From: Hexactinellida sp. DTS-2022
Taxonomy: Eukaryota > Porifera > Hexactinellida
Direction of reading: 5' to 3'
DNA: 64,000 nt
NCBI GenBank assembly: GCA_028753945.1
Contig: JAPNXP010000001.1
Span: 1,516,001 to 1,580,000, forward strand
This document shows positions 694 to 60,802 of this stretch, piece after piece. Position numbers and translations under genes: made by a program. Numbering within the stretch: the first letter of the stretch is position 1; every line of letters begins with the position of its first letter. The notes below the pieces were generated by a model. The model did no database searches, was not told the origin of the DNA, and worked only from the letters and a program-made list of their open reading frames with translations.

Positions 694-3600
694 ATGACAG
701 CTCTATCAGAGCCGACAGAGTTTGTGTATTATCCAGGAGACAGTGCTGAGGTGCTCTGTTGGTCTGAACCCGCTACGGTTAGGGAATTAGTTCTATTTAT
801 ATCTCATCTCTCTCAAACCCAGTCAGATAAAGGGTGCGTGGAAAAACTTAACTTTCCTTCTTCTTACTACCTCGTACACACTAAGTGTAGTTTGGTGGTT
901 GCACTAGACCTCAGCAGTTATATGTTTGTTCTGTTACGTAACCAGTCGAGCTATCTGTTGCTCTCACTTCTCCAGCGCCTGACTCACGTCCTGAAACAGC
1001 TCTGCGAGAACACCCTAATCGGATCTGAGGAGAGAGAACCTGTTATTGTACTCACTTTCATTATCTTCTCATTCGACAGGTCGAACACTGGGTTATTCTC
1101 CAAGGTTTTATTCCAGAAACTTGAACTGAGACAGAATACGGTAACCGAGTTAAGCGAGGAGATATATTCCGCAGTTTTGAGTTTTTATGGAAGTATGGAA
1201 TGCAGATCCCTTGAAACTTCGAACTCTCCGACTGCACAGAGCTCACTAGCAGACGTCCTGCAGCTGTGCATATACTCGTTTAACTTCCTTCCCTCTAATC
1301 AACACAGACACATACTCATGGCCTCACTGCCCATCATAGACTTCCCAGACATGCCAGCTAAGAACTACATCGTGACTCAGCTCCTGGAGAACCGTATCTC
1401 CTGTTCCTTTCTCTCCCCCCAGCCCTCCCAAGAGCTAGCCAGTCTCGGGTATTTGCCAAACTATTCTGCCATTCGATTCGTAGCGCGAGTCTCGCAAGGA
1501 GCTGTGTTCCATCCTGAAACTCAACCTTCAAGTTATTCTATTTCTGCCGATTCTAATAGTATATTGAATATTTTCCAAAAGTTGATTCTCACTACTTACT
1601 TCCAAACAAAGTGTGACAAGAATTACCTGATTGAATCTATATCTAGCAACAGTTATCCGCTCTACTCTAACAAGAGCGCATCATCCAAACCTGATGTGTT
1701 GCAGGTGTGCACACCTGCATCCCACCTGCTCACCTCTCTATTCCAGATCGGGTTCTGTTTGGATCCTGACGCATGCGACACTGTAGCTATCCAGCTGTCG
1801 AGACCATGGGATGAATCTACAGTGATATACATACAGCTTTCTGAGTTTAATTCTCAGGCAAAATCGCTTCCCTTGGAAGTGTACATTTCCTATTCTACTA
1901 ACCAACTTAGGCTGTTGGATATACAAGATTACTGTGTAGACTCTCGTAATAGAGATACGCTGACGTTTAGAACACAGCAAGTCGAAGTGTTTAGACAGTT
2001 CTACAAAGAATTGAGGCACAGGATTACTATTCTAGACCGTATCTACAATTCTAATTTAACTGTCGATGCTCACTCCTCTCTTATCGATGACTCCGTGACT
2101 GATCAACAGGAGCATTCTAAGAGACATCACCAATTCGGCCCTCTTAAATTGAAAGCGATCCTTCAGAACAAAGTTCAGCAGTGGCACACCTGGATGACCT
2201 CTTGTGTATTTCACCTCTCTCTGCAGACCCCCGGAGACAGCGACTTTATACACACAGCCCTGATTAAGTGGGGAGGCATTGAGGTAGGGGGCAGAGACTT
2301 CTACGTTGTTCAGTTCGAAGAGAATGAGAATTTCTGCTTTGTATCACTCGATGTTTCTTGTCCCCCCTTACTGAATCTTTATTTTGGTTTTCATTTCTCT
2401 CTCAGTAGAACCGAAATTAATGTAAAACTCGACACCTTTGTACAGAATATTCGAAATTATTTTAACGTACTAACCCCTAAAAGAAAACGTTCCAAATCAT
2501 ATCCCGATTCCCCCTTTGCTTTCAAGATTCCTTACCAGTTCCATACACGTGATATAGCAGATATTTTCCGTTTCAATTTCAAGAGAAATGGATTCATATC
2601 CTATGACATTATAAAGTGTTACTTTATTTCTCGATGTTTCTCTTTCCCTATGAATCCTGTAGGAGAAGAAGATCGCAAACTATTGCTACAAGTGGCTAAG
2701 CTATTCGTTATGAATAAAGTTAATGAAGGCTGGTCTGTTTTCAAATCCAATAGCTATACAACATTGTTCCAACAGTTGACAATCAAGAGTAGTATGAACT
2801 CACAGCACAAGGCTCTAGCATGTTATTTCCTATACCTTGAACAGGTTAAGTACACGTGGCAGCTAAAAGTTGATTTTTTTCTCGAACCGATAAAGGAATC
2901 TATATTCTCCAATAATCTCGATTTAAACAAAACGTCTACGATGGAACTTTTTGATGAGGTGGCTACTGTAGATATGAAAATGTTGGAGTGTGCATTGAAC
3001 TTCTCTACCATAGGATTTGGTTGCCAGACGAGTTTCGTTCCTAACTTGGAATGTTTACTTAGCAATTGTTCTACTCTCATATTTGACGCGCCGCTCTTTC
3101 TCGAGCAGGGCCCTCTCGAGGAGAGTCACAGGTTTAACGACCAGATAGTTAGCAGACTCATTGGCAAGCTGACCGACTCGTCCTGTCTGCAAACCAAGAT
3201 TGACGTCACTCTCATGACACTACCGATTTATAACACCATTTCCGAGACAGACCACTACCTAACGAATCTAATTTGTTTCTTCAAAGAACACACAGATATT
3301 CTGAACCGATTATTAATACATAAACTTGAGTTCAGATTTCTATATAAGATTGAGATAGATAGCTCCGAAGCTTATTTTATCGCAATGCCTACCTGCACAC
3401 AGAGCTTATCCCAGCACCTGAAAGATATGCCTAATTACTTCCCACTTCCCGACGTACAAACCTTTCCTATCATTATATACTACGTGGCAGTCGATAGAGT
3501 ATATGAGATACCTTCGTGCTATTTCTATGGAGCTAATAACGGGATGTACGGGCATCCTAGCATGCCGGTTCCGCTCAAGCATTTCCTTACTTACATTCAG

Positions 3601-6600
3601 GGAGAGTTTAACAAGAGTTTCGTAGATGTTGTGCTGTCCTATATTGCTGAGCGTTTGCCTATTGCGCCCACTGTTTTCCAAACCTGTCTCGATTACTGCA
3701 ATCAAGAAAGGTTCCATTCTTCCCTCGACTTAACAACTACGTTAAAGACGCTTTCTACTGTAACGGCTCTGAGGCCCTCTGTTTCTCTCAGTCTGGACAG
3801 ATTCCTCAAAGCCAAGTTGCCCTACTTCATTCCCTGCTCGCAAAAGAAGGGACTGTATTATTTCTCCATTGAGAAATTTGAAAAAATGTGCGAAAGCAAT
3901 ATGAAGTTGCGCGAAAAGATTTCCGTTACAGCTGACGTGAAGATATTTATCCAGCTAAGAACGAGCCTACTGCTTGAGTCCGGCCTGTGCGAGGACATGC
4001 TCCTGGAGGACCTCACTCTCCAGCAACGCTTTCTGCAAGAGGAAAACCCCATCCAGTCCGCTGTCCTGGGAATCGACTGCTACACATTTGATACTCAGCC
4101 TACTGAGTTCTCTATTATAGAGCGAGACAGCGAGAGAGCCTCTTCTTCCGGCAACAAGCAGACGAGTGAGCCGTACCTCTCCCTGCCCATCTCGCACTCC
4201 CGCACCAGCAGCCTCGACAGACGGGACCTCGCGAGGGAGAGTCTGCTCCCCGCGGACGCAGTGGAGGCTCAGATTCTCGTTAAGCTCATCAAGACCAACA
4301 ACAATACCAACTTTAACAACCAAATGTTGGACTTTACTCTGACGCATGACAGCCTGCTGACACATCTATTGGAGGAGACGCAGTGGCAAATAAATGACCT
4401 GACTGTCGCTGCTCTTTCCAACAATCTAACTTCCACTGCTCTCCTCCTGGAGATCGTAGACCACATAAAGCAGGGCGAGGAGCTGGGTAAGCTGACCTGC
4501 ACTATATACTGTCTCCACGAGAATATCACCTACTCGATGCTGGCACTCACGCCAGGAACGAAGGAGAGATTCATGGGGGAGCTGGACAACGGGATTCCGG
4601 GGTTTCGAGCTGACAAGTACGACTCGTACTACAACCTTAAGCTCATGGACGAGTCCTATGCCAGTCTAAGCTACTGGATTGTTATGGAGGTTTGCACCGA
4701 GCTGCCTAAAATAACTTTCTACATCCATTACAACAGCACTGACAGACAGGATTCTGGCCTCTCTTCTCGCTGGCTGTTCGAGCAGGGCAACCGAGCCGTG
4801 GAGTCGGTATGCAGGAAGGTGTTCCAGATCCTGCTCCTGCATGACCTGTACAGCAACAGGATTATGTACTCCCAGCTGTCTGTGGACTACCATCCCCTGG
4901 AGCTGGAGGAGGACGCCCTCTGCTTCTTCCAGTCCAACCTGGCCTGTCCGCACCAGTTCCAGTACTACATACCGGTGCATTGGCGGCTCGGACGCCAGGT
5001 CGCGCAGTCGCTCGCCAAAAAGTATTTGGAGTCCCTCAAGTGCAAGAATGCTAACTCTATTTACATTCTTGAAGAAGACATCGCCACTGATAGGATATAC
5101 TACATGTACATTAACACTGTTGATAAGGACACCGTGGGGACTGTGCTTAGTCTGCTTGAGAGCCGACTGGGCAGGGCCGAGGACGTTCTTCTGAGATTCG
5201 ATGTCTACGGGGTCCACACGCCAAGCAAACGCTACCAGGAATTAGTATTCAACAATATAGAAGATAAAATGTATAACGAGATCCTAACTAAGCTGTGTGA
5301 CTCGTTTAGCCAACAAGCAAATATCCAATTATTCGCGCAAGACGTGACCTTCCTACAGCCAGAGGCTAAAGTGGACAAACCAGAGGAAACTGCCACATTC
5401 TTTCTGCCCACTTTTGTTGAATTGAACCTGAGTAGCTTTGTGTACTATCTATTTCAGTATATTCACTCCACGTGCACACGTCTGAAGAAGAAGTGCTTTG
5501 CTCATGACGTATTCTTTCAACTCCCCTCCAACTATCCAGAGTGCAATTTAGTAGACTTAAGCGAGAATTTTTTCATTTCCGCTGAGCGGCCTATTCAGAC
5601 TCGTAGCATTATTCTAATAGGCGTTATCCTGGTTGAGAGTGCGAGTAGCAAGCCTCTCTCATTCAAGCAAGCCTTAGGGATAAAGCCTCAATCTTCCCCT
5701 TCAACATTTGATGCCGTTCTATCGGAGCTAGCGGGTTCTAGAGAGTTCGATAGCCGCTATAAAATCAGTGTTATGATGTGGCAACACGGAAATGCTGATT
5801 GCGAGAAGATGCGCGATAAAATCCTCAGTCATTGCTCTGCCGCCCTCTTTGATTTTGTTGTTGAGTATTACTTTCTGAGAATACCTTACTCGCCTAGATT
5901 TGAGTGTTATTGTGAAGTGCTGATTAAGACCAGCCTTGAGGCATCGCCAGTTGTTCACAAGGAACAGAGGACGAAGTCTACTTCAATGGGGGCTGTACAA
6001 CCCGACTCCAGAGACGATACTCCGTATGTGGACTTGCTGCTAAGCTACTGCTCTGGCGACTCCGCACAAGACAAATATGCCAATCCACTTGATCAAGAGT
6101 TCATAAAGGGCATTGAGTATTTCACTATCCACACTAGTAACTATAATACATCAACATTAAAGCGTTTGACAGGTGATCTACCTGGTACATTCACAGTCTC
6201 GCGGTTTTTCTCACTCCTCTTGAAACATTTGAACCCAATCTGTCGCTCTTTTGAATTCACTCAAGATCTCTTCCAGCAAGAATCAGAAGAAATCAATCGT
6301 TATTATAAAATAAATATTAATTCTATGTTAACCGATCCTCAGTCTATTTTCCCTACTAATCGATTCATTTTGATAATGCGTAGTCCTTACCATTGGTTAC
6401 AATGTAATAATACAATCGGAGAAGCGCGAGGCAAAAGAATTATTTCCAAGAAGATAGCTCACTTATCTTCTCACTCAACAGTTCTCAAGTACCCACTTGA
6501 TCCAAACAGTGAGAACCTTTCCCGTGATGAGCCATTCTTCGACACATTCAGGCAGTATAATTCTGATGACGTCATACCGCGACAATCCTTTATTTTATTC

Positions 6601-8493
6601 AGTGTTTGTGATAAGACTGTGGCTTGTTGTTCTTATAATTGCTCCAAGACTATCACAACTCAGCTAACTGATACCTTTCATTCAATTCTAACTCTGATAA
6701 GACAAGAAGTGATTATTTGGAATTCTATCATTGAGCTGAAGGAAGTTAGGTGTATTCGGGAGTTTGTAATGTCTGAAGAAGTGAGGCACGCTTTCCTAAC
6801 TGTTTTCAAGCAAACTGTCCACTCTTTTTCTATTGAAGAACTTCTTGAAAAGCTAAATCTAAATCGAATCAGTACTAATATCTGCGACTTTCGTCACTTC
6901 TCTGCTGACCTAAATCTTATGATTATTCAATACCTGAACATCCTCAGAAGAAACTATGTTCTCACTTTTCTGAATAAATCTAAGATTCCACTGGGAATGG
7001 AAATGAAAGATATCGAAAATATCCTCTCTAGTTCCACCTGTATATACCATACTGCAGGAGATCTACAAATTGTTCAGTACATCAGAAAGAGAAACTTTGA
7101 ATTTACCTGTCCACATGTCTTCTATAGATCTGTGTCCATCTTCCCTACCTGCCACAAGAAGAATTCTCAGCTCAACCATTCATTCCTCTACAGCTATGTG
7201 ACTCAGCTCAGCCTGTCCGGGTTCATTCTCATTCTCGTTAACGCCGCAGTCGAAAATCAATATGAACTGTATTTGTATTTTAATCTCGAATATACGGGTG
7301 TTGTTTTAAAACTCTGTTTAGAACAAACTCATTTCAGTATACAGCTGTTCGCTACTTCTTTGGTGATGTTAGATGAAATGATTGCTGAATCCCTCAGGCA
7401 CGTTCTACCTACTATCTCTATTCTGTCTTTCGAGAAAGATTTCTTTCTTGGTTACGTACACTCTCTGTTAGCTATTTCCAATAACAACCAATCGGTATGT
7501 TTAATTGCAGTCATAAATTCAATCATTTGCAATTCTCTGGATCGATTTGGGTTCCATTCAGTTCAAAAACTTAACGTTTCTTCAAAAAATACACATATTG
7601 TTGACACTATTGAATATATTATCAAACACGCCTCAGATTTTGGAGTATGTCATCTCTTGTGTACCAAATGCAACCAGTCCTTGTTAGTATATTCCCTCTC
7701 GGACAATCCCAGCCAATCTAACCAATATTTACATTTATTCAATTCATTCCCTCAACTGAAGTGCTTTTTAATAGAATATGAGATATCTTTTATTTTTGAC
7801 TTAAAAACTTTAAATAAACAATCCCTAAATACTCGCACATTCGATGTTTACGTCGTAATAATAAACAAAAAGAGTCTTACAACAAATTATTTCAATTCTT
7901 CTCCTCTCTATGCGCACTCTATGTCGTCTGATAAATGTAGCCTTGAGTTCGATTTTCAATTGTGTTGTCAAATATTTATCGATTGTCTCCTTGAGCTGGC
8001 GAATTTGCAACAGAAGAAAGAAGTTGTCTTTCAATTGTTTATTTCTAACATCAAGATTACAGGTCGCCGTGGGAAATTAAATCATCATGATATTTCAATC
8101 TTTGAACAGTCCATACATTCCTACCCGATCATGGATATATTGCCTTCGAACATTGATATCAAACTGACAGCAAAAAGGGGAAGATTAACAGATTTTTTGA
8201 AGAGAAAAGACCCCTCGCTCCCTGGCTTATTTGTAACCAGTAGTCAGAAAAATGACTTTTCAATTTATCTATTCATTTCATCCCGAGATGAACGTGCTAA
8301 TAATTTTTTGATTTGTTTCTTTTCAACTTTAAACGGATTCAATGAAGGGATTAAGCTTTTTCATCACTTCTTGCATCAATCTAATTCTCTGAACGAACAA
8401 CAAATTCAGGTTGTGCTTTTTAATTATTTCAATAACGAATTAGAAATATTTGTGAAAGCCTTTAAAATCTTCACATCACATATATTCAAATAA
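694..8493 (+). CDS. SZT2: KICSTOR complex subunit SZT2-like, single exon
   Basis: A 2599-aa uninterrupted frame. SZT2 is the large scaffold of KICSTOR, which holds GATOR1 on the lysosome so that mTORC1 is shut off when amino acids are scarce. The N-terminal 280 residues follow the SZT2 order: a segment on keeping to ELDLS-type strands (VALDLSSYMF), then LPSNQHRHIL, then SCSFL and LGYLPN before a FVARVSQG strand, matching the vertebrate LPSNSSAGII / ACSFVQVGG / FGHVPN region. A later conserved block around residues 1200-1290 (HLLEETQWQINDL) corresponds to the NEIRWLLEDEM region. It is shorter than the roughly 3400 aa of vertebrate SZT2, with less low-complexity linker. The start is the first ATG after in-frame stops. 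The protein is divergent but reads cleanly to its stop. No introns are visible, which is remarkable for this gene. Confidence 0.8.
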   Translation: MTALSEPTEFVYYPGDSAEVLCWSEPATVRELVLFISHLSQTQSDKGCVEKLNFPSSYYLVHTKCSLVVALDLSSYMFVLLRNQSSYLLLSLLQRLTHVLKQLCENTLIGSEEREPVIVLTFIIFSFDRSNTGLFSKVLFQKLELRQNTVTELSEEIYSAVLSFYGSMECRSLETSNSPTAQSSLADVLQLCIYSFNFLPSNQHRHILMASLPIIDFPDMPAKNYIVTQLLENRISCSFLSPQPSQELASLGYLPNYSAIRFVARVSQGAVFHPETQPSSYSISADSNSILNIFQKLILTTYFQTKCDKNYLIESISSNSYPLYSNKSASSKPDVLQVCTPASHLLTSLFQIGFCLDPDACDTVAIQLSRPWDESTVIYIQLSEFNSQAKSLPLEVYISYSTNQLRLLDIQDYCVDSRNRDTLTFRTQQVEVFRQFYKELRHRITILDRIYNSNLTVDAHSSLIDDSVTDQQEHSKRHHQFGPLKLKAILQNKVQQWHTWMTSCVFHLSLQTPGDSDFIHTALIKWGGIEVGGRDFYVVQFEENENFCFVSLDVSCPPLLNLYFGFHFSLSRTEINVKLDTFVQNIRNYFNVLTPKRKRSKSYPDSPFAFKIPYQFHTRDIADIFRFNFKRNGFISYDIIKCYFISRCFSFPMNPVGEEDRKLLLQVAKLFVMNKVNEGWSVFKSNSYTTLFQQLTIKSSMNSQHKALACYFLYLEQVKYTWQLKVDFFLEPIKESIFSNNLDLNKTSTMELFDEVATVDMKMLECALNFSTIGFGCQTSFVPNLECLLSNCSTLIFDAPLFLEQGPLEESHRFNDQIVSRLIGKLTDSSCLQTKIDVTLMTLPIYNTISETDHYLTNLICFFKEHTDILNRLLIHKLEFRFLYKIEIDSSEAYFIAMPTCTQSLSQHLKDMPNYFPLPDVQTFPIIIYYVAVDRVYEIPSCYFYGANNGMYGHPSMPVPLKHFLTYIQGEFNKSFVDVVLSYIAERLPIAPTVFQTCLDYCNQERFHSSLDLTTTLKTLSTVTALRPSVSLSLDRFLKAKLPYFIPCSQKKGLYYFSIEKFEKMCESNMKLREKISVTADVKIFIQLRTSLLLESGLCEDMLLEDLTLQQRFLQEENPIQSAVLGIDCYTFDTQPTEFSIIERDSERASSSGNKQTSEPYLSLPISHSRTSSLDRRDLARESLLPADAVEAQILVKLIKTNNNTNFNNQMLDFTLTHDSLLTHLLEETQWQINDLTVAALSNNLTSTALLLEIVDHIKQGEELGKLTCTIYCLHENITYSMLALTPGTKERFMGELDNGIPGFRADKYDSYYNLKLMDESYASLSYWIVMEVCTELPKITFYIHYNSTDRQDSGLSSRWLFEQGNRAVESVCRKVFQILLLHDLYSNRIMYSQLSVDYHPLELEEDALCFFQSNLACPHQFQYYIPVHWRLGRQVAQSLAKKYLESLKCKNANSIYILEEDIATDRIYYMYINTVDKDTVGTVLSLLESRLGRAEDVLLRFDVYGVHTPSKRYQELVFNNIEDKMYNEILTKLCDSFSQQANIQLFAQDVTFLQPEAKVDKPEETATFFLPTFVELNLSSFVYYLFQYIHSTCTRLKKKCFAHDVFFQLPSNYPECNLVDLSENFFISAERPIQTRSIILIGVILVESASSKPLSFKQALGIKPQSSPSTFDAVLSELAGSREFDSRYKISVMMWQHGNADCEKMRDKILSHCSAALFDFVVEYYFLRIPYSPRFECYCEVLIKTSLEASPVVHKEQRTKSTSMGAVQPDSRDDTPYVDLLLSYCSGDSAQDKYANPLDQEFIKGIEYFTIHTSNYNTSTLKRLTGDLPGTFTVSRFFSLLLKHLNPICRSFEFTQDLFQQESEEINRYYKININSMLTDPQSIFPTNRFILIMRSPYHWLQCNNTIGEARGKRIISKKIAHLSSHSTVLKYPLDPNSENLSRDEPFFDTFRQYNSDDVIPRQSFILFSVCDKTVACCSYNCSKTITTQLTDTFHSILTLIRQEVIIWNSIIELKEVRCIREFVMSEEVRHAFLTVFKQTVHSFSIEELLEKLNLNRISTNICDFRHFSADLNLMIIQYLNILRRNYVLTFLNKSKIPLGMEMKDIENILSSSTCIYHTAGDLQIVQYIRKRNFEFTCPHVFYRSVSIFPTCHKKNSQLNHSFLYSYVTQLSLSGFILILVNAAVENQYELYLYFNLEYTGVVLKLCLEQTHFSIQLFATSLVMLDEMIAESLRHVLPTISILSFEKDFFLGYVHSLLAISNNNQSVCLIAVINSIICNSLDRFGFHSVQKLNVSSKNTHIVDTIEYIIKHASDFGVCHLLCTKCNQSLLVYSLSDNPSQSNQYLHLFNSFPQLKCFLIEYEISFIFDLKTLNKQSLNTRTFDVYVVIINKKSLTTNYFNSSPLYAHSMSSDKCSLEFDFQLCCQIFIDCLLELANLQQKKEVVFQLFISNIKITGRRGKLNHHDISIFEQSIHSYPIMDILPSNIDIKLTAKRGRLTDFLKRKDPSLPGLFVTSSQKNDFSIYLFISSRDERANNFLICFFSTLNGFNEGIKLFHHFLHQSNSLNEQQIQVVLFNYFNNELEIFVKAFKIFTSHIFK

Positions 8494-8882
8494 TAATTAT
8501 TAGAATAGTTGCTCCTCAAATATTTTAGTTTTAACTTTTCAAGTTGCCTCGAAGAAACAGATTCAAGACTAGTAGCATTTATTTATTGATTGGTTTTATT
8601 TTATCTGCTTAAATATATTCTGAATTGAAAGTTACATTAAGATTAAAGAATTTATCAAATCTTTATGAAGTTATTTACATTCTCGCTTGTGTACAGTGCA
8701 CCCTCTTTAAATTTATAATCCATATTCCAAATACGTAGTACAATATTTGTGTCTTGAACGTGAACGAAGGATTCAGAACAATTTAATACGCACATATATT
8801 TGCACGAACTATAACAAATTCTCCAATTAAATTAATGGACTACTAATTTATTTAATAATGAATAACATATTTGGCAATTAGA

Positions 8883-9173
8883 ATGTCAAAGGGTATCCAG
8901 GCTATACAGATGGCGCTTAGGAATGCACGAGAACTTCGACTGCACATGTGTCAGACCTCTCCTCAGAGTGAAGGTGTGAGGAAGTTCGTTCGAGATTTCT
9001 ATTTGGAGCTGAAGCTCCGTCATCCTAACTTTCCCATTCTTATCAGAGAATGCGAAGGCACTCCGGCCAGAGTCTACATCAGATTTGACAAGGGCGTGGA
9101 GAAGTCGGCCTCGCTTGACAGCCAGAACAAAGACCAAGTTGTTGTTAGCATAGAACAACTGCTTTCTAGTTGA
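8883..9173 (+). CDS. NDUFA2: NADH dehydrogenase 1 alpha subcomplex subunit 2 (complex I B8)
   Basis: A 96-aa protein with the thioredoxin-fold (L51/S25/CI-B8) domain. It is a nuclear-encoded accessory subunit of mitochondrial complex I, on the matrix arm. Diagnostic stretches are ELRLHMCQTSPQSEGVRKF near the N-terminus and PILIRECEG in the middle, matching the animal IHLCQRSPGSQGVRDF and PILIRECS blocks. Length is normal for the family (about 99 aa). The reading frame extends four codons upstream only through a TTG, so the ATG at 8883 is taken as the start. The gene lies about 390 bp downstream of SZT2 on the same strand. An AATAAA polyadenylation signal lies at 9276-9281, about 100 bp after the stop. 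There is no intron. Confidence 0.93.
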   Translation: MSKGIQAIQMALRNARELRLHMCQTSPQSEGVRKFVRDFYLELKLRHPNFPILIRECEGTPARVYIRFDKGVEKSASLDSQNKDQVVVSIEQLLSS

Positions 9174-9590: not shown

Positions 9591-9594
9591 ATGT
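9591..9594. repeat. target-site duplication ATGT, left copy
   Basis: ATGT immediately precedes the left TIR (CACGGG...). The same four bases follow the right TIR at 13262-13265. The 4-bp duplication fits Chapaev-type transposition. Confidence 0.75.
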
Positions 9595-9954
9595 CACGGG
9601 TGTAATTTCTTTACGAAAAAAATGAAAAAATTATCAACGCATAAGAGTCATTGAACTATGTAATGCAATGTTCAGTATGTAAGAAAATGCAATTTACTAA
9701 TCCCTGTGACGTCAGGAAAAAATTGCCCATAATATTTAATTTATGCCACTTTTTATTAGTATATAGTTTGGCAAACTAGCCAAAAAATGCTAATTTGTAT
9801 TCAAACATTGGGTTTTTAAACTTTATTATATCGATACCATATACGGTGTCAATGAGTGGATAAATTTATTCAATCTAACATACCATTTCAAAAAATATAC
9901 TAATTTATTTCTCAATGTCGGACGTTTTTGAACGTCCCCCTCTTTATTTTATTT
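9595..9954 (+). repeat. left terminal inverted repeat of the RAG1-N-like transposon
   Basis: 360 bp, starting CACGGGTGTAATTTCTTT. Positions 1-7 (CACGGGT), an 11-bp spacer and an A-rich ACGAAAAAA resemble a recombination-signal heptamer/12-spacer/nonamer layout. Near the inner edge is a short hairpin, GGACGTTTTTGAACGTCC, mirrored in the other TIR. Confidence 0.85.
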
Positions 9955-10383
9955 TTTCTGAATAGTTATTATATATCATTAACTGTAATATTTAAAACGT
10001 TATTATCGAATAGAAAGCCATGTATTTATATACTGTACGTACCCAGTGCTAAACTTTGATTGTGTATTCTGGTAAACATAACTCTCGAAATTTATATTTA
10101 TTATCCATTTCTATTATTGTTTACAATTACAAAGTAGTGTATAAGGAATCGTACATGTGAATCCATTGAACTAGAAACTGTAATATAATATTATTTACCT
10201 GAAAACTAAAAATTTACATCGCTCTATTCTCTATATCATGCTTATGATTACTGATTATAATTGACAATTCAACCATTTGAAATACATACTGCTTTTTGAT
10301 TATTCTAGATATAACGGTAATACAACATACATATATTGATATTTCGACATTCAGTCTTAATTATTATTTCTGAATTTTTCCAT

Positions 10384-12627
10384 ATGGCCATACCAAATGA
10401 AGTATCAAATCTTTATGATAATTATCATCTTGATAACCTATATCGAATTTGTCGATTTTGCTACAATCGACTTACTTCCAAAACTCTGCCCAGGGAATCT
10501 CTTCGACAACCACCTTCGCAAATGATTTCTAAAAGAGCTCAGAAGTTCTACCAAATAAACTTTGGATCAGAGATAGCTGATCTAAATAAGCCTAAAGTTA
10601 TTTGTAGCCTTTGTCGGGCTCGATTATCTAACTTGGAAACAGGCAAATTAACTCTTGACAAATGGGAAAAAGATCGCCCAAATGTTGAGTTTCTACTAAC
10701 CATCGAAGAAAACCTATGTACTACTCGGAGTACTTTGGGATGTAATTCAGAAAATCGATGTCAAATTTGCCAAATATTTGGTTCTTCCCTCAATAATTAC
10801 ATCCTCAAGCATAAAAAACAAGCTCCTAGACCTGGTAGACCTTTAGAACAGTCACCATGTAGACCCATGTGTAGTAAATGTGGAAGATATATGGATAATC
10901 ACTCAGATAAATTTTGTCAAAGCATAATGTTGCATCCCCAAAGCTCTTCAACCGCGGGCGCACTTTTTGCGGATAGAGTAGAAGCTCGAGGTTTCACAAG
11001 TTCGGTTGCTGTAAAACACATTAAAAACACACTAATGCAAAAAGAGACTGCTCAGTTCCCAATTATTTTGAACCATCCTTATGATTCCAACCACGGAATT
11101 GTAGTATCTACAGTTGGGTATGAAGGGAGGGAATGTGTCAACAAAAAATTGAGCGTTGAAGCTGCTCGAGATATTCAGAGATTAGGCCATCTAGGTCTTG
11201 GCAAGCATTCATACTGGGAATTAGGACGAATTCTGCGTCGAGAAGGAATTACGTTTCCTACTGGTGGAATTAAAGGGGCCTGGGATGAAAAATGGTCCAT
11301 TTTTGGAATTATTTTTACTCCAGTTACTCTTCAGATACACCGCGAGAATATGATTATTCCACCAGAGCCGACACCATTTGGTTTTTGCACAGACAACGAA
11401 TATCTTTTAAATATCGTCACCCACAATCAATTGAATCGAATTTGTCGTTTGAAGTTACATATTGATGGAGGAAAAGATTTCTTAAAAATTTCTCTAAATA
11501 TTATTTCGATGAAGCCTGGAAGCTTATATTTCCCCACTCCTAATAGTGTCCTAACTAACTTTGTCATTGCCATGGGAAAGGGCCCTGAGAATTATCATAA
11601 TTTGAAACAGTTGCTTACATACCCATCAGTAAGTAGATTATTCGCACTAGATTTCGCCATCCAAATTGCTTGTGATTTCAAAGTTGCAGCTCTGCTTGTC
11701 GGAATTCAACAAGCTTCAAGTAACTTCCCCTGTCCTTTCTGTCTATGGCGTAATCGTACATTATGTACCGGTATACCTGCAGCATCGAGGAAGCATGAAG
11801 AAATGATGACAGATCTTTCTAAAAAGCATCATAATGTCGTCAATGAACCGATTATTAGTTGGAATTATTCAGTAATGGAAAAAATTGCTCTCGCTCCATT
11901 ACATATTCTTTTGGGATTGGTGAATAAATTATACAGTGATGCAAGGCCTAGTGAGAGTTCATCGAGTCGAAATGAGCGCAATCTCTACAAACTTCATTGT
12001 GCAGCACTACATAAGTTTAAAGTATTCAGATCAGAATATTGGAACGGTACTCTGGAGGGTAATTCATGTTCAAGGCTCTTAGACAATTTGGAAAAGATCC
12101 CATTTCCAAAGAATTCAACGAAATTCTTAAGTGCATTAATTGCTTTAAAGCATGTGAAAGATATGTGTCTAGGTACTGTAAGAAAATTAGGATGGCAAGA
12201 CAGCATTATAAATTTTCGGGGGGCATGGCATGATACAGGTTTGGCATGGTCTCTGAAATCACATATTCTCTCAGACCATTATGAGGAGTATTTCTACCAC
12301 TATGAAAGTATTAGTGGTGCAGGAGCTGCTATTAGTTCAGAGCAAAGTGGTGAAATGCTCCATTCTCGATTACAAAGGGTATGGGATCTTCGCTTCAAGA
12401 CGAGAGAAGACAATTCTCTATACCCCCAACGTCTTGTTGATTGTATGGTCACATACAATTATAACCTAAAGTGGGATAGGGCTGTGAGATCAAACACAGA
12501 AAATTTAGAAAAAGAAATTCAGGAAATTGATTTCGACAACGAACCGATTGAGGATGACGAAGAGAGAGTAGAACTACGCAATTGGGTAACTGATTCTGAA
12601 AACTCAGATTTAAGCGATTCAGATTGA
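10384..12627 (+). CDS. transposase with RAG1-N-like zinc-binding region
   Basis: 747 aa from the first ATG (the open frame runs 16 codons further upstream, but only to a TTG). N-terminal Cys pairs occur at C23/C26 (RICRFC), C74/C77 (ICSLC) and C126/C129 (CQIC), then C159/C163/C166-H173-C178. The spacing resembles the CRIC...CHNCW...CDIC pattern of the RAG1 N-terminal dimerisation region. The central part has HIDGGKDFLKIS (D361), ACDFKVAALLVGIQ (D431), a CPFC zinc knuckle (C450/C453), LAPLHILLGLVNKLY and SSEQSGEMLH (E653/E657). These are candidate acidic catalytic residues of an RNase-H-type transposase, an inference only. The C-terminus is acidic. The frame has no stops or frameshifts, so it may be functional. 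It presumably cuts at the TIRs and reinserts the element. Confidence is high for transposase, moderate for the RAG1-N relation. Confidence 0.75.
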   Translation: MAIPNEVSNLYDNYHLDNLYRICRFCYNRLTSKTLPRESLRQPPSQMISKRAQKFYQINFGSEIADLNKPKVICSLCRARLSNLETGKLTLDKWEKDRPNVEFLLTIEENLCTTRSTLGCNSENRCQICQIFGSSLNNYILKHKKQAPRPGRPLEQSPCRPMCSKCGRYMDNHSDKFCQSIMLHPQSSSTAGALFADRVEARGFTSSVAVKHIKNTLMQKETAQFPIILNHPYDSNHGIVVSTVGYEGRECVNKKLSVEAARDIQRLGHLGLGKHSYWELGRILRREGITFPTGGIKGAWDEKWSIFGIIFTPVTLQIHRENMIIPPEPTPFGFCTDNEYLLNIVTHNQLNRICRLKLHIDGGKDFLKISLNIISMKPGSLYFPTPNSVLTNFVIAMGKGPENYHNLKQLLTYPSVSRLFALDFAIQIACDFKVAALLVGIQQASSNFPCPFCLWRNRTLCTGIPAASRKHEEMMTDLSKKHHNVVNEPIISWNYSVMEKIALAPLHILLGLVNKLYSDARPSESSSSRNERNLYKLHCAALHKFKVFRSEYWNGTLEGNSCSRLLDNLEKIPFPKNSTKFLSALIALKHVKDMCLGTVRKLGWQDSIINFRGAWHDTGLAWSLKSHILSDHYEEYFYHYESISGAGAAISSEQSGEMLHSRLQRVWDLRFKTREDNSLYPQRLVDCMVTYNYNLKWDRAVRSNTENLEKEIQEIDFDNEPIEDDEERVELRNWVTDSENSDLSDSD

Positions 12628-12901
12628 TTAAATAGTCGCATAAACCAACTACATATACTTACTACTTTATCTGAATTACATTGTAATCATTATTATATTT
12701 ATTAGAACGCTGTTAAAACTTCTTTTACATTTGGGGTATGATGGATTGGTACTATACGAAATAACATTTAAAACAACATTTTTATCAGATACTTCCATAA
12801 TTATCATAAATCACATAGGAAACGACATGTTTTTCAATAATAATGCATTGAATATTACAGTTAATGATCTATAGTAACTATTCCAGTGATATCGGAAAAA
12901 A

Positions 12902-13261
12902 CTAAAATAAAGAGGGGGACGTTCAAAAAACGTCCGACATTGAGAAATGAGATGGGATATTTCTGAAGTGATATGTTAGATAGGAATAAATGTATTCAGT
13001 AATTGACACCTTATATATTATCGATATAATAAAGTTTAAACCCCCCATGTTTGATTACTAATTAGCATTTTTTGGCTAGTTTGCCAAACTATACACTAAT
13101 AAAACGTGTCATAAATTAAAAGTTATTGATAATCTTTTCCCTGACGTCACAGGGATTAGTAAATTGCATATTCTTAAATACTGAACATTGCATTACACAG
13201 TCCAGTGACTCTTTTGCGTTGATAATTTTTTCATTTTTTTCGTAAGGAAATTACACCCGTG
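12902..13261 (-). repeat. right terminal inverted repeat of the RAG1-N-like transposon
   Basis: Reverse complement of 9595-9954 with scattered differences and no net length change. Ends ...AAATTACACCCGTG. The outermost 14 bases are identical to the left end. Confidence 0.85.
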
Positions 13262-13265
13262 ATGT
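13262..13265. repeat. target-site duplication ATGT, right copy
   Basis: Matches 9591-9594 exactly, marking the edge of the transposon insertion. Confidence 0.75.
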
Positions 13266-13659: not shown

Positions 13660-14502
13660 ATGTTCCATCCTCAACAAGCACACTCTCCTTTCCCAAAGGA
13701 GAACATGTACGCTGTGGAGATACAGCGTGTCCTGGACTGCAACGCTTCTATAATACATCTCATTATTGATAGTCAGCACAAGGGTAAGACTGACAACCTA
13801 ATCCAATACATGGGACAGTTGCATGCTAACCTCATGTGGCTCACCAAACAGGCATCAATTAATTACCAAATGGAACACGGGGGTGCCCCTCCCCCCAACC
13901 CCCAGTTCTCTCCCGCCCAAGCAATGCCGAAGTCTCACCCAATGCACCCTTCCTCTGTCCCTGTCGCTGCCCCTCAGGCCGGGAACCCGCAGAGCGCCAT
14001 ATCATTCGCCGCCGCGCAGACCCCCGCCCTCCCGCACGCCCAGTCCATGGCCGCCGGGGCGAGCGTGCACCCGACACAAACCTGGGAGCGGCCCACCAGC
14101 CCCTCCCCTCTCGCCAGCGGCCACAACCCCTTCGACTTCTCCCCTCAGTGGACCGGCTCAGGCTCAGACGGGTACTCCCAGCGGGCCAGGGCTCCCTCCT
14201 ACATGCAGCACCAGGACGGGGTCGCGTTTCCAAACCAGCACAGGGGCATTAACCCGATGGACAGCATGGGGACACCTCAGCGACAGATGACCCCGTCCCT
14301 GCCCGCCAATATGTACAAGCCGTACAGCGCTGGCAACTACTCCGCTCAGACAATGGGCTCTCAGCCGAGACACAGCGGGCAGGTCGCCAACAGCACCGCT
14401 CTCTCGGCAGCCCCGCCCTACACACCCAGCCAAATGGGGCACTCGGGGCTCGCTCAGATGCAGGCGCAGGCGCAGGGGAGAATAAACCAACAGTACATGT
14501 AA
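13660..14502 (+). CDS. SS18: SS18/SSXT-like BAF complex subunit
   Basis: 280 aa. The first 65 residues form the SNH domain of the SS18/SS18L1/GIF family (AVEIQRVLDCNASIIHLI, DSQHKGKT, LHANLMWLTKQA), which in vertebrates anchors SS18 to the BRG1 ATPase of the BAF chromatin-remodelling complex. The rest is a Pro/Gln/Met/Ser-rich low-complexity tail, like the QPGY activation region of SS18 but with less Gly-Tyr. The start is the first ATG; a second in-frame Met (residue 16) lies just before the domain. The coding sequence is very GC-rich compared with its surroundings. AATAAA follows at 14586-14591. Single exon, whereas SS18 usually has many. Confidence 0.88.
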   Translation: MFHPQQAHSPFPKENMYAVEIQRVLDCNASIIHLIIDSQHKGKTDNLIQYMGQLHANLMWLTKQASINYQMEHGGAPPPNPQFSPAQAMPKSHPMHPSSVPVAAPQAGNPQSAISFAAAQTPALPHAQSMAAGASVHPTQTWERPTSPSPLASGHNPFDFSPQWTGSGSDGYSQRARAPSYMQHQDGVAFPNQHRGINPMDSMGTPQRQMTPSLPANMYKPYSAGNYSAQTMGSQPRHSGQVANSTALSAAPPYTPSQMGHSGLAQMQAQAQGRINQQYM

Positions 14503-15153: not shown

Positions 15154-15288
15154 CGAGCCCTTCGGTCTCGGTCGCTTTGCGACAGATCGGTGCTACGCAC
15201 CTCAAGTTAACGGCCGCTATGCGGCCTTACTCCTCACATTTTCTACCATGGAAATGGTAGATAGGGACGTTATGATTTTGATTTTGAT

Positions 15289-15975
15289 TAATTTGTTTAC
15301 CTATTTGTGTAAAGAACAACAACAACAAAGACTCATATTAGAATTTTATAAATGCGAAATTCGTGTTCAGCACACTTGTTTACTTATAATACCTATTGAA
15401 AGTTAACTTCTAGGTTGATTTTGAATTTTCATTAAATTGTTTAGCTATTTTGAGTAAACAACAACAACAACAACAACAAATATTCATATTATAAAATTTA
15501 AACGCGAAATTCGTGTTCAGCATACTTGTTTGCCTACAATACCCGTTGAAAGCTAACTTCTAGGTTGATTTTGAATTTTAATTAATTTGTTTACCTATTT
15601 TGTGTAAACAACAACAACAAATATTAATATGAGAAATTTAAAAACGCGAAATTCGTGTTCGGCATACTTGTTTACCTATAATACCCGTTGGAAGCTAACT
15701 TCTAGGTTGATTTTGAATTTTAATTAATTTGTTTACCTATTTTGTGTAAACAACAACAACAAATATTAATATGAGAAATTTATAAACGCGAAATTCGTGT
15801 TCGGCATACTTGTTTACCTATAATACCCGTTGAAAGCAAACTTCTAGGTTGATTTTGAATTTTCATTAATTTGTTTACCTATTTTGTGTAAACAACAACA
15901 ACAAATATTAATATGAGAAATTTATAAACGCGAAATTCGTGTTCAGCATACTTGTTTACCTATTATAACATTTGA
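15289..15975. repeat. minisatellite of about five units of roughly 135 bp
   Basis: Each unit carries AATTTGTTTACCTATTTTGT, a run of ACA triplets, a GCGAAATTCGTGTTC block, and CTTGTTTACCTATAATACC. Units differ by small indels and by the number of CAA triplets. It is internal to the Helitron-like element; single-unit versions are found in the other copies. Confidence 0.8.
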
Positions 15976-16040
15976 AAGTTAGTTTATATCCCAATATTAA
16001 TTGCGGTTTCTATTCCCCCATCACTTTAATATAATCCGGA

Positions 16041-60400: not shown

Positions 60401-60710
60401 GCCTGGTTAATACAAATCAATGATTTAAATTTCCCAAAAATTCAAATAAATCATAAATTTTCCTAGCCTGCGGTACAATTACATTATATAAATAGGACTT
60501 GTATAATTTGGTACTTAAATATTTATAGATAATGTAATAAATTAATAATATGAATGTTGTGAATGAGCATCACTATGACCTTCGGGAGTACCTAGGGTTG
60601 GCGAGCCTTGGGTAGGTGGCAGTACGGGCTGACCATGACAACGGGTCTTGGTATTCACTAGCCGGCAGTACGACTGGTAACGGAACTAGGTTGCCGCGAG
60701 GAGCAATAAG

Positions 60711-60762
60711 AGTGGTCGAGGCTTACCCTCCTGATGAGTCCCTGCAATGGGACGAAACCACT
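60711..60762 (+). ncRNA. hammerhead ribozyme, type III topology
   Basis: All parts of the hammerhead fold are present. Helix III is AGTGG (60711-60715) with CCACT (60758-60762). TC precedes the predicted cleavage point after C60717. Helix I is GAGG (60718-60721) and CCTC (60727-60730) closed by CTTAC. The core CTGATGA occupies 60731-60737. Helix II is GTCCC (60738-60742) and GGGAC (60749-60753) closed by TGCAAT. The core GAAA is at 60754-60757. Both core segments are perfect and all three helices pair without mismatch. Helix III is the open one, making it type III. Self-cleavage would process transcripts of the element into unit-length RNA. Confidence 0.88.
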
Positions 60763-60802
60763 GACATAACATCCCTATGAGGTGGGGACCTATGGTACGA
60801 TT

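Follow-up and report, generated by a model that had tools for sequence, protein, structure and literature searches.

A probable Chapaev-group transposon in a hexactinellid sponge, with an N-terminal zinc region that may be related to that of RAG1

Does the genome of Hexactinellida sp. DTS-2022 (GenBank assembly GCA_028753945.1; 112.4 Mb in 18 contigs) contain a transposon that joins the N-terminal region of RAG1 to a transposase core of another kind? The stretch analysed (hereafter the window) comprises 64,000 nucleotides of contig JAPNXP010000001.1 (C1:1516001-1580000), in which an earlier note, made from the letters alone, had proposed an apparently complete element encoding a RAG1-N-terminal-like protein with a non-RAG1 core. 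Our analysis suggests, with a probability of roughly 0.7, that the element is a complete autonomous transposon of the Chapaev group (CACTA-Mirage-Chapaev-Transib clade) and that its 'Chapa'-type N-terminus is related to that of RAG1.

The element is 3,667 bp long (window 9595-13261), begins with CACGGGTG and ends with CACCCGTG, and is flanked on both sides by an exact ATGT duplication, as previously described (coordinates in Table 1). Its terminal inverted repeats, for which a matched length of 360 bp had been given, can be aligned for ~360 bp if single-base gaps are allowed and for ~415 bp if larger ones are, and the match of the right end to the left is 87% across 401 bases; the 747-codon frame is intact, with no internal stop. 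No second gene such as RAG2 is seen among the frames of the element, and an Rfam scan over it gave no match at E <= 0.1. Ten loci in the genome, including this one, have exact ends on both sides; at eight of them the 4-bp flanks are identical (ATGT in the window, then TTAT, AACT, TACT, AACT, GATT, TACG and TACT), and at the other two they do not match exactly (L012, CTAT/AGCT; L039, AGGC/TAGG). With the addition of the L050 family, which starts with CACGGTTCG and is bounded by GACT at either end, identical flanks are found at nine of 11 loci. The ends, the 4-bp duplication, the open frame and the copies elsewhere bear out the completeness of the element. An empty site with a single ATGT, which the earlier note had suggested looking for, was not found in the assembly, where the joined flanks match solely the window's own two flanks.

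Assignment of the core to Chapaev, likewise anticipated, is upheld by the published signature and by a relative. The hallmarks listed for Chapaev in the relevant part of one source are 3-4-bp duplications, CAC/GTG ends and the motifs C(2)C, LH and H(4)H (PMC4079192). Judged from its sequence, the window element appears to possess them all, with CAC...GTG termini, a 4-bp duplication and candidate DDE residues together with C(2)C, LH and H(4)H; in alignment A2 (14 rows, several of them partial, so that counts refer to rows with a residue at the position) the proposed catalytic residues and the motifs are conserved in every such row, save L506 and H507 in 11 of 12 each (Table 1). The relative is the L050 family, which is joined to the window family by comparison of core profiles (probability 99.3 to 99.9) and by a six-frame genome search (E 5e-11), and of which the copies at C1:1335762 and on C15, with their frame neighbours, pass the DUF1280 (PF06918) threshold in the six-frame search at 27.3 and 25.6 bits. 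DUF1280 is equated with Chapaev transposases, of the same clade as RAG1, in the passage of PMC3985635 that deals with it. Less favourable to the assignment are the scans of single proteins: the best Pfam match of the window protein has an E of 0.14, with neither DUF1280 nor RAG1_imp_bd listed at E <= 10, and L050 matches DUF1280 (E 1.6e-4) with 21.8 bits, or 22.5 bits for its C15 copy as a single protein, below the 25-bit cut-off. The core is of Chapaev type, with a RAG1-like fold predicted by modelling. The window element shares with Chapaev its ends, its 4-bp duplication, its DDE core with the three motifs, an N-terminal zinc region and relatives that match DUF1280, but its own protein is too diverged for the Pfam DUF1280 model. 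It also differs from the two Chapaev subgroups described in part of PMC4411706 as having a RING after the zinc region, since no RING exceeds the cut-off in the window family (the best is zf-RING_4, E 0.093 over 13 residues). Chapaev3 has the same core motifs and ends, but is listed with 3-bp TWA duplications in the relevant part of PMC4079192, in contrast to the 4-bp ATGT here.

CxxC pairs occur in the window protein at C23/C26, C74/C77, C126/C129, C163/C166 and C450/C453. Nine of the 14 A2 rows, the window's included, contain the N region, and in these C74, C77, C126, C129, C163, C166 and C178 are conserved in 9/9, C26 in 8/9 and C23 in 7/9. H173 (6/9), C159 (3/9) and C112 (1/9) are less well kept, so the C-C-C-H-C cluster that had been proposed after the first three pairs is better written as C163-x2-C166...C178 with a shifting His.

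Moderate evidence, drawn from profile comparisons, relates this zinc region to the N-terminus of RAG1 (RAG1-N). Pooled N profiles score against RAG1-N above shuffles in which Cys and His are held in place, and of four N profiles searched against the PDB, A3 gives RAG1-N first. The PDB chains that top the N-region searches are RAG1-N and the zinc finger associated domain (ZAD; zf-AD in Pfam) of insect transcription factors, and ZAD fits the region about as well as RAG1-N does. ZAD has in common with it two CxxC pairs, the CRxC ... P-x3-C-x2-C spacing and a weak fold match to the N domain, and differs in that no zf-AD match exceeds the Pfam cut-off here; ZAD proteins are not known to have a catalytic core.

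These likenesses raise the most serious alternative, namely that what stands in front of the Chapaev core is a ZAD-type or generic treble-clef module, its resemblance to RAG1-N being that of a wider zinc fold. We consider this unlikely, since the two pooled profiles score higher against RAG1 than against ZAD (36.8 vs 27.2; 31.2 vs 28.7) over more aligned columns (108-110 vs 59-80), the z-score of profile A2 is 8.2 for RAG1 vs 5.1 for ZAD, zf-AD (PF07776) is unlisted at E <= 10 in the window-family proteins scanned (HMMER filters may hide weak matches), and a zinc module followed by a core of RAG1 fold is the architecture of RAG1. Cys/His-preserving shuffles reach the observed score in 0/100 cases for RAG1 and in 0 to 1/100 for ZAD.

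Several results nevertheless weigh against a specific relation to RAG1. With profile A6 the z-score is higher for ZAD (5.7) than for RAG1 (4.7), and RAG1 is absent from the PDB matches listed for profiles A4, A5 and A6. Shuffles reach the score against RAG1-N in 5/100 cases for the window subfamily profile, 57/100 for P0002 and 56/100 for the P0002-like group, so the RAG1-N signal hinges on which relatives are pooled. The Pfam family of the RAG1 N-terminus (PF12560), which detects human RAG1 with 407.5 bits as a positive control, has no match in the window protein and the relatives scanned, and a single weak one at another place in the assembly. Foldseek returned three matches for the model of the N domain (predicted local distance difference test score 63.8), none of them meaningful; the one PDB entry listed is a ZAD, as a weak fold match, and the RAG1-N entry 21wb, which may lie outside the fold library, is not among them. 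The stretch after the second Cys pair, containing the third, is not significantly similar to RAG1 by itself (10/100 shuffles reach the score). The relation to RAG1-N proposed in the earlier note is accordingly retained in part: the pooled profiles and A3 favour it, but ZAD fits about as well, and three of the four profiles searched against the PDB lack RAG1.

A bolder proposal, possible if rather doubtful, is that three modules share a common ancestry and spread from transposases of the CACTA-Mirage-Chapaev (CMC) type: the first zinc module of Chapaev, its N-terminal counterpart in RAG1, and ZAD, the dimerisation domain of insect zinc-finger proteins. It is supported by the occurrence of both RAG1-N and ZAD as top PDB matches, each above Cys/His-preserving shuffles, and by the ZAD that is the sole PDB entry listed for the N model. 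Further support comes from zf-AD itself, whose best match among five in the genome (E 0.06, below the cut-off) is the front of another transposase locus, L062:196-1886 +, which consists of two frames ~140 bases apart. In keeping with the proposal, the L062 front resembles zf-AD (Pfam E 0.0011, below the cut-off) and profile A6 (score 35.2, 0/100 shuffles), and the second frame is homologous to the window core (score 124, 0/100 shuffles). The L062 front is not significantly similar to the A2 profile (8/100 shuffles reach the score). Counting against a single origin, this front reaches significance neither with RAG1 (7/100) nor with 7pok (17/100), nor does RAG1-N when compared directly with two ZAD chains (19 and 18/100). 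A search of the paper library found none that names RAG1 together with ZAD and the full name of that domain. If the proposal is true, the front domain of a transposase is present both in the V(D)J recombinase and in a large class of insect transcription factors.

The predicted fold of the core (residues 240-706) matches RAG1 and Transib (HzTransib) above all other entries listed from the PDB, with 10-15% identity in the structural alignments, so that core and RAG1 are not strangers to each other. The description 'non-RAG1-core' therefore needs qualification: the core is of Chapaev type, but its predicted fold is, among the PDB entries listed, closest to RAG1/Transib. D431 and C450 are 19 residues apart, as are D708 and C727 of RAG1. 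The element would have in common with RAG1, ProtoRAG and Transib the predicted core fold and this spacing, and with RAG1 an N-terminal zinc module; it differs from RAG1 and Transib in its 4-bp rather than 5-bp duplication, and from RAG1 in that no RING was found after the zinc module. Confidence in the protein model is modest (predicted local distance difference test score 64.6, predicted template modelling score 0.52), and by sequence the similarity of the core to the RAG1 core is weak (score 22.4, probability 0.8, without a shuffle control); both results tell against the proposed relationship. Searches of PDB sequences with whole proteins or with the whole-family profile gave nothing useful. 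The modelled fold match to HzTransib and RAG1 is what would place the element in the Transib/RAG line proper instead of Chapaev, but as top match it does not discriminate, because no Chapaev structure is in the PDB lists; the 4-bp duplications at nine of 11 loci, the Chapaev motifs, the DUF1280 link and the absence of the RAG1-core family PF12940 from the matches of the window protein, despite 68 other places in the genome, make this very improbable. These 68 places were found at E <= 1 (15 over the cut-off), the best being C2:3229569 (L054:982-3066 +). The 695-aa protein of L054, a separate element, has matches to both RAG1 (E 1.5e-9) and DUF1280 (E 2e-4), with no N-terminal Cys module in frame; apart from it, Pfam scans of the window protein and its relatives gave no RAG1 family.

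A DNA search with the left end of the element gave 16 matches in the genome, a figure that takes in right and partial ends, and the protein of the element matches at least 68 stretches. A copy on C11 comes closest, with 99.3% identity across 3,668 alignment columns (10 mismatches) and a TTAT duplication of its own, and the main pieces of copies on C4, C10 and at C1:6443077 are 96.6-98.0% identical to the window element. Protein-match rows indicate that the frames of these four nearest copies are shifted or stopped, so the window frame is the sole intact one among five near-full copies. An intact, young copy had been claimed, and the open frame and the C11 copy confirm it; further long frames are open in diverged subfamilies of the same genome (L012, 756 codons; L016, 754; P0002, 678; and L050, present as two near-identical copies, 709 from its own ATG). 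The divergence between left and right ends is 13-14%, whereas that between the window's ends and the corresponding ends of its four nearest copies is 1-6%, implying that the divergence of left from right predates the spread of the copies. Between the window and L012, nonsynonymous (dN) and synonymous (dS) divergences are 0.229 and 1.83 for the entire protein, 0.277 and 1.55 for residues 1-190, and 0.212 and 1.95 for the remainder; because dS is near saturation for L012, and beyond it against L016 and P0002, the ratios are rough. Both halves of the protein are apparently kept under constraint. The intact frame and the purifying selection between subfamilies are also what a domesticated host gene would present, a reading hardly credible in view of the inverted repeats, the exact duplication, the 99.3% identical copy with its TTAT duplication and the decayed sister copies. 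No relatives were found in GTDB genome contigs, IMG/VR viral contigs or phage records. In the P0002 element (L039:2244-6298) the inverted ends are very long: the part of its gene that codes for the N-terminus (residues 1-118) recurs downstream in inverted orientation (96%).

On the preferred reading of a Chapaev-group transposon, the 747-aa protein would dimerise and bind the CAC...GTG inverted repeats, cut at a metal site formed by D361, D431 and E653 or E657 within an RNase H-like core, and insert the element by cuts staggered by 4 bp. The core may be braced by a zinc site comprising C450/C453 and H627/H632, as the RAG1 core is by an equivalent site. By analogy with the known roles of the RAG1 and ZAD domains, the N-terminal zinc region probably contributes to dimerisation or contacts the ends or partners.

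The union of a RAG1-N-like region with a transposase core is not new. In its passages on the domain, the paper of Kapitonov and Koonin (2015) reports that Chapaev and Chapaev3 transposases carry Chapa, a truncated RAG1-N-like complex zinc finger, which is found, among known transposable elements other than the RAG-related ones described there, in no others (PMC4411706). The element fits this description without the RING; the combination has thus been in print since 2015 or earlier. N-RAG-TP of Aplysia, compared by description only, is also a transposon with a RAG1-N-like protein (PMC8355894, PMC2996935), but is described in part of PMC8355894 as composed entirely of RAG1-N-like sequence. To this the element adds a young copy that is still intact, in a genome with several diverged subfamilies, together with a testable hint that would bring ZAD into the same zinc family. 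The element is a workable object for testing how far the architecture of RAG1 predates the RAG line and what the N-terminal zinc module of RAG1 does in a transposase, and the diverged subfamilies (window, L012, L016, P0002, L050 and L062) permit a richer comparison than a single copy.

Table 1. Features of the element (window coordinates; row counts refer to alignment A2)
Feature	Position	Strand	Basis
Left target-site duplication ATGT	9591..9594	.	sequence
Left terminal inverted repeat, start CACGGGTG	9595..9995	+	self-alignment, genome match
Transposase frame, single exon, 747 codons and stop	10384..12627	+	open reading frame list, translation
First zinc module C23xxC26 ... C74xxC77, RAG1-N ('Chapa') / ZAD-like	10450..10614	+	profile comparisons, weak fold match
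Third Cys pair C126xxC129	10759..10770	+	motif scan, alignment columns
Zinc-knuckle-like cluster C163xxC166 ... C178	10870..10917	+	motif scan, alignment columns
Catalytic core, residues 240-706, RAG1/Transib-like predicted fold	11101..12501	+	structure model, fold search
D361, proposed first catalytic Asp	11464..11466	+	11/11 rows with the column
D431, proposed second catalytic Asp	11674..11676	+	11/11 rows
C450-P-F-C453, C(2)C motif	11731..11742	+	11/11 rows
L506-H507, LH motif	11899..11904	+	11/12 rows each
H627-x4-H632, H(4)H motif	12262..12279	+	12/12 rows
E653-QSG-E657, one of the two the proposed catalytic Glu	12340..12354	+	both 12/12 rows; model helix 654-671
Right terminal inverted repeat, end CACCCGTG	12848..13261	-	self-alignment
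Right target-site duplication ATGT	13262..13265	.	sequence

The element lies between a frame with a CI-B8 domain (window 8871-9173) and one with an SSXT domain (13660-14502), and the neighbouring genes, among them the SSXT-domain protein and a secretin-type receptor, point to an animal genome. Upstream, one frame stays open for 2,599 aa (694-8493 +); this frame, long for an unspliced animal gene, has no Pfam match at E 0.001. A tandem array at 15273-15978 has a period of 142 bp (94% matches) or 284 bp (88%), and a Type III hammerhead ribozyme is found at 60710-60763 + (54.7 bits, complete model).
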